DNA of 64,000 nucleotides from Phycisphaerales bacterium (GTDB lineage: Bacteria > Planctomycetota > Phycisphaerae > Phycisphaerales > UBA1924), in NCBI GenBank assembly GCA_013360675.1, contig JABWBB010000001.1, positions 186,001 through 250,000 of the forward strand, written 5' to 3'. The position numbers and the translations under genes are program-made. Under the pieces are notes generated by a model. It did no database searches. It saw nothing but the letters and a program-made list of their open reading frames with translations, and had not been told where the DNA came from. Every line of letters starts with the position of its first letter. The first letter of the stretch is position 1. This document shows, one piece after another, positions 22,484-25,102 of this stretch.

Positions 22484-22966
22484 TCAGGGAGGGCCCGCAG
22501 CGTTCACGCTCCATGACACCGAGCGGTGACTATTCTGCTCGACGAGCAGCACGCCCGACAGCAGCCCGACCATCAGGAGGTTGCGAGCGCAGATCGACGC
22601 CCACGCCGCGGGCGCCTCGCTCCAGCCGCACCCGCATGACGAGCCGCTCGCCGGCGGGTTCAGCCAGAGCAATCCTGCATAGCCCGCAAAGACCGCGAAG
22701 AGTACGACGAGCCACAGCGAAGCGCGACCGACTGTCTGGTGCACGCCGATCAACCAGAGGGCCCAGCCGCCGATCACGGCCTCGCCAACCGGGACAACCC
22801 ACACGGCGGCGGATGTCATCCACCCCGGGATCAACGCATGGGCACGCACCGCCTCGTTGAATGCTTCGGGCGAGAGCATCTTGCTGATGCCCGTCGCCAG
22901 CACGAACACCCCGGCCATGACCGGAATAACCGCAACCATCAATCGCCATCGACGCCTCTCACGCAC
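22484..22966 (-). CDS. MauE/DoxX-like redox-associated membrane protein
   Basis: 160 residues with four hydrophobic helices. GTG start at 22966, with GGAGG 7 bases upstream; it overlaps the stop of the preceding gene by 8 bases. The family pattern is TGISKMLSPEAF near the N-terminus, VVPVGEAVIGGWAL, and a Cys-rich loop NPPASGSSCGCGW between helices 3 and 4. MauE-type proteins support disulfide formation in exported partners, classically the many-disulfide small subunit of methylamine dehydrogenase. Here it is the last gene of a four-gene operon that also encodes a 12-Cys secreted protein, the obvious candidate client. That link is inference. Confidence 0.7.
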   Translation of the reverse strand: MRERRRWRLMVAVIPVMAGVFVLATGISKMLSPEAFNEAVRAHALIPGWMTSAAVWVVPVGEAVIGGWALWLIGVHQTVGRASLWLVVLFAVFAGYAGLLWLNPPASGSSCGCGWSEAPAAWASICARNLLMVGLLSGVLLVEQNSHRSVSWSVNAAGPP

Positions 22967-23930
22967 GGACCATCCTCCGACGCACGATCCATGCCACCAC
23001 GCCGATGCCCACCGCGATCGCGCCAGCGATCACGAGCGATTGACTCCACCGTTGCTCACCGCTCGTATTCCCAAGGATCGGCGTGACCTTTGCATCTCGC
23101 TCCGCCCACTCGTCGGGACGAGCGATCGGTGTGCGCTCGCGGACCGCAAGCCGCCGATCCTTCGCCTCCTTCGTGACCGTCGCGATCGAGAAGGCATCTG
23201 GGCGTTCTGCGGGGTTGAATCGAAACTCCTTGACCGTGAACTCCGGATTGGTCGGCGGGCGCGTCACCAACTGGAATCCGCCGGGAGAGTTGGGCGAGCG
23301 ATCGACGTCATACGCCGGGCTCTCCTCCTTGGCCCATGGCGCCAATCCCTTGACGTGGATCGATCGGACCATCAGGTCCGAGTCCACTCGGACCAATACC
23401 GTCCGCATGACCTTCTCGGGCCCGCCCCATCGCGCCAGTTCGGGCTCGGGGAGTTCTTCGATCGTAAACTCCCGCTCCCCGCGAGGAAGCGTGAACGCGA
23501 GCGTGTATCCAGCATCGGGCTCTTGCGTGATGCTCTGGAGCGAGCCGTGCAGATCGAGCAGCGCCCTCAGGCCATACCCCGGGAAGAGTTCGTCCAGCGA
23601 AGAACCAAGCCCCGTGTGCGGCTTCTCGAATCGCTTCACACGCCCGTTGTTGGGGTCCCAGTCGTACAAAATACCATCAGGGTCACGGCCGAGGACCGCG
23701 ATGCGATTATCTCGGTACCACGCGCCAGTGGAAAATTCGTACCCCACACGAAAAGTGTTAAGGTCGTCTCCATAGACAACATGAACACTCCCGGCTTTGG
23801 GCCACCCTTCGACCAGGCGGGCGCGGATCCCGGCGGCGATCTCCTTCGGGGTGGTCTGCGCGTGCGCCCCTTTCCCCATGAGGAAGAGAGCAACCACACC
23901 GATGATCGCTCGTAGCGAGCGAATTTTCAT
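22959..23930 (-). CDS. Exported protein with C-terminal membrane anchor, unknown function
   Basis: 323 residues. The start at 23930 is set by an ATGA overlap with the upstream stop. The N-terminus is a signal peptide (LRAIIGVVALFLMGKGAHAQ). The body is beta-rich and charged (GAWYRDNRIAVLGRDPDGIL, then FTVKEFRFNPAERPDAFSIA), reminiscent of LolA/DUF2092 outer-membrane-sorting folds. The C-terminus is a single hydrophobic helix (SLVIAGAIAVGIGVVAWIV) with an RRRMVRA tail, so the domain would be held outside the inner membrane. I do not recognise a named family. It is the third gene of the G-tract operon. Confidence 0.65.
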   Translation of the reverse strand: MKIRSLRAIIGVVALFLMGKGAHAQTTPKEIAAGIRARLVEGWPKAGSVHVVYGDDLNTFRVGYEFSTGAWYRDNRIAVLGRDPDGILYDWDPNNGRVKRFEKPHTGLGSSLDELFPGYGLRALLDLHGSLQSITQEPDAGYTLAFTLPRGEREFTIEELPEPELARWGGPEKVMRTVLVRVDSDLMVRSIHVKGLAPWAKEESPAYDVDRSPNSPGGFQLVTRPPTNPEFTVKEFRFNPAERPDAFSIATVTKEAKDRRLAVRERTPIARPDEWAERDAKVTPILGNTSGEQRWSQSLVIAGAIAVGIGVVAWIVRRRMVRA

Positions 23931-24340
23931 GCGCCGCCTCCGCCTCCGCTGCACCCGCAGGGGGCACCCGTGGGAATCAGCATGTTGCCAGGGGAGGAAT
24001 CATTGGTTTGGTTGAGGTCCTTGGCATAACAACACACCGTGCCATCGCGGCACCCCGTCGGATAATAACCGCCCGGGGAGTCCCCATCACAGGGAGCGGT
24101 GATGACATTTCGGATGACATAGCAACGTCGCGACACCGTGCTGTTCGCAGGCCCTTCCTTGCCGCAGCCCGTATCAATCGTCCCATACCCCGTGTCGCAG
24201 ACTTTCATGCCATTCTGGCAGAAATCGCTTGTGCCCGCCTTGCACCCGCTGCTCTGGAGGAAGTAGCACGTCTGAGACGCCGTCGCCCCGAAAAACGAAC
24301 ACGCCATCACCATGATCGTCACCGCTGGTTTCATCCGCAT
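23927..24340 (-). CDS. Small cysteine-rich secreted protein
   Basis: 137 residues. A signal peptide (MKPAVTIMVMACSFFGATAS) is followed by about 115 residues holding 12 Cys, including paired CC and CGC. It ends in a Gly-rich tail (SGGGGGA), whose GGAGG-containing codons also supply the ribosome-binding region of the next gene. No known domain is recognised. The even number of Cys and export suggest six disulfides. AAGGAG lies 10 bases before the ATG. It is the second gene of the operon, coupled by ATGA to the anchored protein. A small disulfide-rich surface protein, adhesin or enzyme subunit are all possible. Confidence 0.7.
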   Translation of the reverse strand: MRMKPAVTIMVMACSFFGATASQTCYFLQSSGCKAGTSDFCQNGMKVCDTGYGTIDTGCGKEGPANSTVSRRCYVIRNVITAPCDGDSPGGYYPTGCRDGTVCCYAKDLNQTNDSSPGNMLIPTGAPCGCSGGGGGA

Positions 24341-24357: not shown

Positions 24358-25026
24358 TTACCGCAACCGATCGATGCCCCTCACACCGCCCCACGTCGAC
24401 ATAACGGGGTGCCCGACCCAGTTCTCGATAAAGGTTTCGCGGATCTCGATACTCCGCGCGGCTTTGCTCTGGACGCTCCCGTCCCCGAGCGCGATGGGGG
24501 TCTCAACCTGTAAGTCATAGATAGTCCAGAACACGTGCCGTTCACCGATGATGTGCAGCCATTGCCACAGGACACCCTTGGACGAAGGAAACAGCACGTC
24601 CGTTTGGCGGATCGGCGACGTCTCGGCGAACCCGATCGGAACTGTCGCGCCCGGTTCCATCATCGCTGCCGGATGAAACATGCACCCCGACAGTGCGATC
24701 CGCGTCGAGCCCGTCAGACGCACGCCCTCCGGGTCGATGCTCTGTGCGTTTGGAAACACCCCGCTCGCGATCAATGGGCGATCCCAGCGCAGCATGCTCC
24801 CGTTCACGCCCGGCTCCGCGATGGGGTAGACATCCGCCCAATCCCCGAGATACGCAAAGACCCCGGTCGCCGCGTTCCGCATTTGCATCGCGTTCCGTGC
24901 CTGCTTGCTCATCTCTCGCGCCTTGCCCAGCGCGGGCAGCGTGAGCCCGATCAGCACCGCGATGATCCCGATGCAGATGATAAGTTCGATGAGCGAGAAA
25001 CCGCCCCGTCCCATCCGTCCGATCAT
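24358..25026 (-). CDS. Type II secretion / type IV pilin-like prepilin protein
   Basis: About 222 residues from ATG 25026 (GAGG 12 bases upstream); in-frame ATGs at 25044 and 25038 are alternatives. The class III signal is clear: GRGG/FSLIELIICIGIIAVLIG, with cleavage before Phe and Glu at +5. The hydrophobic helix is followed by LPALGKAREMSKQARNAMQM and a globular domain. Near the C-terminus ALGDGSVQSKAA resembles the H-X9-DG motif end of planctomycete prepilin-like proteins. Processing and assembly would need a prepilin peptidase and secretion ATPase, not in this window, and perhaps the secretin at 58-60 kb. First gene of the G-tract operon. Confidence 0.8.
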   Translation of the reverse strand: MIGRMGRGGFSLIELIICIGIIAVLIGLTLPALGKAREMSKQARNAMQMRNAATGVFAYLGDWADVYPIAEPGVNGSMLRWDRPLIASGVFPNAQSIDPEGVRLTGSTRIALSGCMFHPAAMMEPGATVPIGFAETSPIRQTDVLFPSSKGVLWQWLHIIGERHVFWTIYDLQVETPIALGDGSVQSKAARSIEIRETFIENWVGHPVMSTWGGVRGIDRLR

Positions 25027-25053
25027 GCGAGATGCCATCCTCATGTAAAAATG

Positions 25054-25079
25054 AATATACCCCCCCCCCCCCAACGCAA
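25054..25079 (-). promoter_or_regulatory. Candidate phase-variable promoter with a 13-base G tract
   Basis: On the minus strand, TTGCGT (25079-25074) is followed by one T and 13 G (25072-25060) and then TATATT (25059-25054). The homopolymer makes up nearly the whole spacer, which is 14 bases here, short of the optimal 16-18. Slippage by two or three G would reach optimal spacing. Transcription would start near 25047, just before the prepilin-like gene. Confidence 0.55.
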
Positions 25080-25083
25080 GGGG

Positions 25084-25102
25084 TAATCCACTCTGTGGAT
25101 AA
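25084..25102. promoter_or_regulatory. Quasi-palindrome containing a perfect DnaA-box sequence
   Basis: The plus strand reads TAATCCAC-TCT-GTGGATAA, two 8-base arms with one mismatch. The right arm read on the minus strand is TTATCCACA, the DnaA-box consensus; the left arm matches 7 of 9. It lies just upstream of the G-tract promoter and about 105 bases after the dnaB stop. It may be a regulator operator or DnaA site for the operon; a single pair is too little for an origin. Confidence 0.45.

Follow-up and report, generated by a model that had tools for sequence, protein, structure and literature searches.

Why does a run of 13 identical bases lie directly in front of a prepilin-like gene in a planctomycete, and what might it do there? 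The run (25060-25072) reads as 13 C on the plus strand, i.e., as G13 on the minus strand, from which the gene is read. It is the only homopolymer longer than 8 in the window, by which is meant the whole 64,000-nucleotide stretch of DNA that was analysed. The genome is that of an uncultured planctomycete (2.92 Mb, 97% complete), and it was compared here with 120 genomes of the same family. Slippage-driven phase variation, the process that such a tract brings to mind, has been studied mostly in host-associated pathogens and commensals.

The window promoter and its operon

Along the minus strand, TTATCCACA is followed by GAGTGGATTACCCC, TTGCGT, a single T (25073), the G13 tract, TATATT, CATTTTTAC, and the ATG of the first gene (25044-25042), which begins 9 nt after TATATT (Table 1). 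The initial annotation had described a 13-base G tract between a -35-like TTGCGT and a -10-like TATATT, a 14-nt spacer, and a prepilin-like gene downstream. All three points hold. The sequence has the elements in that order on the minus strand, the hexamers are 14 nt apart, and the gene product matches the Pfam N_methyl family (E=2.8e-5), with a prepilin methylation motif and hydrophobic helix. A homopolymer between the -35 and -10 of a sigma-70-type promoter is therefore found at the window locus, albeit with a weak -35, and throughout the family, as described below. Because the -35 is a poor match here, we are less certain of the predicted activity of this one promoter than of the pattern in the family. 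A mechanical promoter scan did not include the site among its listed promoters.

Table 1. Features of the window promoter and operon (positions in the window)
Feature	Position	Strand	Remarks
TTATCCACA, DnaA-box-like	25094..25102	-	21 nt upstream of the tract
-35-like TTGCGT	25074..25079	-	3/6 to TTGACA; identical hexamer at the C81 operon of the same genome
G13 homopolymer, promoter spacer	25060..25072	-	among the genome's six long G tracts
-10-like TATATT	25054..25059	-	5/6; abuts the tract; geometry as in other tract promoters
Prepilin-like gene, 228 aa	24358..25044	-	first in operon; PF07963, E=2.8e-5; transcript probably with little or no leader
Secreted Cys-rich protein, 137 aa, 13 Cys	23927..24340	-	homologues in the equivalent position after other tract promoters
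Secreted protein with C-terminal membrane anchor ("secB"), 323 aa	22959..23930	-	overlaps the stop of the Cys-rich gene
MauE-family membrane protein (PF07291)	22484..22966	-	last operon gene; E=8.5e-17; fused to prepilin in four paralogous operons

What does the operon make? It lies downstream of a dnaB-like helicase gene. The AlphaFold model of the window's secreted protein has a mean pLDDT of 51. The MauE Pfam domain is found above cut-off in the window protein and in four fusion proteins (described below), and almost every aligned sequence retains its CxC. Proteins of the MauE family have been connected with the formation of disulphides in methylamine dehydrogenase. Together with the Cys-rich partner, these features suggest the oxidation of an exported protein, while the presence of a prepilin suggests a pseudopilus-like fibre. 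We infer, for function and filament assembly alike, that the operon's product is a secreted protein rich in disulphides, with MauE assisting its oxidation and such a fibre handling it. The closest homologue of the window prepilin, at 44% identity, is in family genome G036; a scan of the wider genome contig set with this prepilin found no relative.

Long G tracts and paralogous operons in the genome

Could the tract simply be a product of chance? G runs of at least 10 occur just six times in the whole genome; their lengths are 12, 13, 14, 15, 17, and 18, so that 10 and 11 are not represented. Runs of exactly 8 number 55; extrapolated with the local extension rate, they predict about 0.3 to 1 run of at least 12 and about 0.001 or fewer of 18. 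In five of the six, the coding strand carries the G's, a start codon follows closely, and the tract stands immediately ahead of an operon of one family. The earlier judgement that the tract exceeds chance is thus borne out by the length statistics and by this placement; with only six long runs, five of them before one kind of operon, a chance run was rejected as the explanation of the window tract. The -35 at the five operon-heading tracts is TTGACA twice, TTGCGT twice, and TTGAAC once. The sixth tract, of 15 G (C76:25381-25395 of this genome, G000; L024 6982-6996), is in a noncoding stretch with no such operon behind it. A gene 156 bases downstream of it resembles, judged from its sequence, an IS200-type transposase and lies amid GC-rich repeats.

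Each of the five tract-headed operons encodes a secreted anchored protein, a small Cys-rich secreted protein, MauE, and a prepilin. MauE and the prepilin form a single fused protein in four of them and are separate genes in the window. The five operons are old, diverged paralogues; the other fusions share 23-35% identity with the first. When the genome was searched with a profile of the fusion, the four tract-headed fusions scored far above all else; an additional, weaker fusion (C81:4676-5605, E=1e-32) has no tract, and the window prepilin emerged as a more distant relative. Gene order falls into four types. (i) In type A, found in three operons of this genome, the secreted protein comes first. 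(ii) In type B, found in the window and behind more than 10 promoters elsewhere, the order is prepilin, Cys-rich protein, secreted protein, and MauE. (iii) In type C, represented by the C2 operon of this genome, the Cys-rich gene leads. (iv) In type D, prepilin and Cys-rich genes diverge from one tract.

The genome also hints at a second element. TTATCCACA has only 10 copies in it, and at three of the five tracts a copy stands 19-23 nt upstream (in the window, and at C2:25376-25384 and C73:36250-36258 of G000). Similar sequences occur close to the tracts of a few relatives. Beyond this genome, the DnaA-box motif is only weakly associated with tracts (4/124 versus 0/725) and was rejected as a family-wide part of the promoter. 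A link of TTATCCACA to replication or to another regulator is possible.

A promoter pattern across the family

The window tract is one part of a much larger, family-wide operon system. The pattern TTGAC-N(1-9)-G9-N(0-9)-TANNNT has 116 matches in 52 of the 120 family genomes, and its reversed form, used as the control, has 1; a C9 version has 36 matches against 0 reversed. The layout, likened at the outset to that of porA, therefore recurs far above control with either base. The sixth base of the -35, left unconstrained in the search, is A in 101/144, and the -10 takes the form TA(T/G)NCT. TTGCGT is rare as a -35 among tract promoters (two loci of the window's own genome and few others); it was rejected as the usual -35 of the family, for which TTGACA is the rule. 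Spacers peak at 16-20 nt, and the start codon lies 6-8 nt after the -10 in 31/114, a sharp peak that implies leaderless transcripts for many tract promoters.

What do these promoters drive? A MauE or prepilin HMM match lies within 4.3 kb downstream on the same strand at 43/67 sites (60 regions), compared with 5/67 upstream on the same strand; upstream matches on the opposite strand, i.e., divergent ones, occur at 14/67. A Cys-rich secreted open reading frame lies within 1.6 kb downstream of 69/100 promoters versus 17/239 control windows. Fusion-profile matches at E<=1e-15 occur in 116 of the 120 family genomes, many spanning the prepilin part only, and the profile matches solved pilins across the N-terminal helix. 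In a set of 61 fusion loci from 60 regions, one of them from the window's own genome, a G or C run stands at the operon front in about half, typically 1.1-1.75 kb ahead of the fusion gene and after a TTGAC-type -35; the rest have no tract.

Outside the family but within the same order, a stricter pattern was rare (five matches in three genomes). In a wider species set, similar promoters appear among the matches listed in gut Clostridia, Bacilli, Treponema, Helicobacter, and others. The promoter architecture alone is thus not lineage-specific but of a widespread kind.

The assembly breaks off at or next to the tract in several fusion-locus contigs and in two more promoter contigs. Heterogeneous tract lengths would account for this, but so would difficulty in sequencing alone, and we give it little weight. 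At one contig end beside a fusion operon (L141 1-240, G002:C13) a G36 stands with C runs as long as 86; the assembly has probably gone wrong there at a slippery site.

Variation in tract length and base

If the tract is a variable spacer, its length should differ among close relatives. Comparison of the tract in related genomes, proposed as a check in the initial annotation, found orthologous promoters of related species that differ by 2 G; these pairs come from elsewhere in the family, the set having no second genome of the window's own genus. Genomes G164 and G099 share one promoter within 1,313 bp at 96.7% identity, with 9 versus 11 G. The orthologous promoters of G081 and G177 have 11 versus 9 G and are otherwise similar, as are those of a paralogue pair in G017, with 11 and 12 G.

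The base differs as well. In relatives, poly-C replaces poly-G on the coding strand at the same promoter place; the G036 homologue of the window prepilin, for example, follows a TTGACA...C14...TAGTCT promoter. Because G and C tracts interchange at one place, length rather than sequence seems to matter. If spacer length is what controls the promoter, a tract should be free to change both base and length, as is seen here. Tract-free promoters of the same operons have a 16-18-nt spacer in 6/8 cases. Among tract-bearing leaderless promoters, 13/31 have spacers of 16-18 nt and most others of 19-21, so that their lengths do not scatter widely.

Tracts shared by divergent promoters

In G036 (two copies), G029, and G028, TTGACA flanks a single tract on both strands, as in TTGACAGAATAGT-G13-TATTCTGTCAA. 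In these divergent pairs, each -10 overlaps the sequence between the tract and the opposite promoter's -35, so that one tract sets the spacing of two promoters. Shared tracts lie at L225 4508-4543 and 7031-7066, L270 4515-4551, and L208 1496-1530, with divergent prepilin and Cys-rich genes. L225 and L226, both of G036, carry tandem, near-identical tract promoters with their first genes; these tandem copies suggest a recent duplication of switchable units.

Weighing the alternatives

The reading we hold with good, though not complete, confidence is that G13 forms a spacer of variable length in a sigma-70-type promoter, makes that promoter phase-variable, and sets transcription of the operon by its length; slippage within a population and dependence on length are both inferred. 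Counting against this reading are the poor -35 of the window, the limited scatter of spacer lengths among tract-bearing leaderless promoters, and the lack of a tract at about half of the relatives' fusion loci. Phase variation of the porA kind is supported at the window tract by comparison of sequences, and switching itself has not been observed. What else could explain the tract? It might be a mutational accident, or an assembly artefact, of a GC-rich genome, in promoter-like surroundings by coincidence. Relatives do often carry tens of long G runs, not all of them in promoters, and the C76 tract, with its 15 G, has no such operon behind it. This explanation is hardly credible nonetheless, being already contradicted by the five of six tracts ahead of one operon kind, the 116:1 excess of the promoter motif over its control, and the near-zero expectation for an 18-G tract.

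Two other explanations grant the tract a function. It might be a fixed cis element of constant length, either a G- or C-rich regulator site or a G-quadruplex-like structure; its place in the promoter is, after all, constant across many genera, and a second shared element, TTATCCACA, stands upstream in three of the five loci of this genome. Such an element would not be expected to exchange coding-strand G for C at one place or to differ in length among close orthologues, and the tract-free members have ordinary spacers, all of which makes it unlikely. Alternatively, the switch might be translational, the tract lying inside a 5' gene end read from a TTG (about 25074-25076) and shifting the frame. 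The prepilin frame is indeed open through the tract from that TTG (24358..25074, MGGGGYIHFYMRM...), but no Shine-Dalgarno precedes it, the prepilin motif begins well downstream, and family-wide a -10 hexamer stands between tract and start, with starts peaking 6-8 nt after it. An upstream TTG start with frame-shift switching is disfavoured by these start positions, and we regard it as very improbable.

A model for switching, and its implications

How would a promoter with a variable spacer work here? Slipped-strand mispairing during replication would add or remove G's and so bring the -35 and -10 closer together or move them farther apart. All the operon's genes, i.e., those for the prepilin, the Cys-rich protein, the anchored secreted protein, and MauE, would be transcribed strongly at a spacing near 16-18 nt and weakly away from it. 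By analogy, the assembled window allele, at 14 nt, would be weak or OFF, and two to four extra G's would turn it ON. As four other diverged operons each have their own tract, cells of one clone would differ in the combinations that they express. Members of the family probably switch several secreted-protein and pilin operons randomly by gain and loss of G's.

A broader speculation, which we favour somewhat over its negation, is that the phasome of free-living Phycisphaerales is large. Many Cys-rich/anchored/MauE/prepilin operons, all of one new kind, would then switch independently of each other behind their own G/C tracts, some tracts would drive two divergent promoters, and one clone would continually make many types of surface or secretion, directed perhaps at phages, predators, or kin. 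If this is true, bacteria outside hosts, too, use stochastic switching of their secreted and pilin-like proteins as a major strategy. The G/C tracts, in their many lengths, form a natural series for the study of spacer-length control in a poorly cultured phylum, and the tract promoters offer a hook for the function of the operons behind them.

How much of this is new? Literature searches returned no report of phase variation in Phycisphaera-type bacteria, nothing on MauE with Cys-rich peptides, and no description of a Cys-rich/MauE/prepilin operon family or of G/C interchange at such a scale. Within the literature searched, the promoter mechanism is of a known kind, while its presence in this lineage and the apparently undescribed operon family appear to be new.

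Comparison with known systems

The closest parallels are promoters with a poly-G spacer, porA of Neisseria meningitidis and tp0126 of Treponema pallidum, for which 17 nt is optimal; the tp0126 promoter was studied with a GFP reporter in E. coli (PMC7864442). Like the window promoter, that of porA has poly-G between -35 and -10, in its case ahead of a surface-protein gene. porA is, however, a single gene of a host-adapted pathogen, whereas here a family of paralogous operons in Planctomycetota has tracts of either G or C, and its starts are often leaderless. tp0126 has its poly-G in the same place but encodes an OmpW-like protein unrelated to the genes here. In N. meningitidis opc, the length of a promoter poly-C controls transcription (PMC7864442); that tract covers the -35 region rather than the spacer. 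Finally, in hifA/hifB of Haemophilus influenzae, one (TA)n repeat spaces two divergent pilus-gene promoters (PMC2651432), the same shared-repeat logic as in the divergent promoters of L225, L270, and L208/L359. There the products are chaperone-usher pili and the repeat a TA dinucleotide; here the repeat is a homopolymer of G or C, the genes encode type-IV-like prepilins, and the window promoter points one way only.
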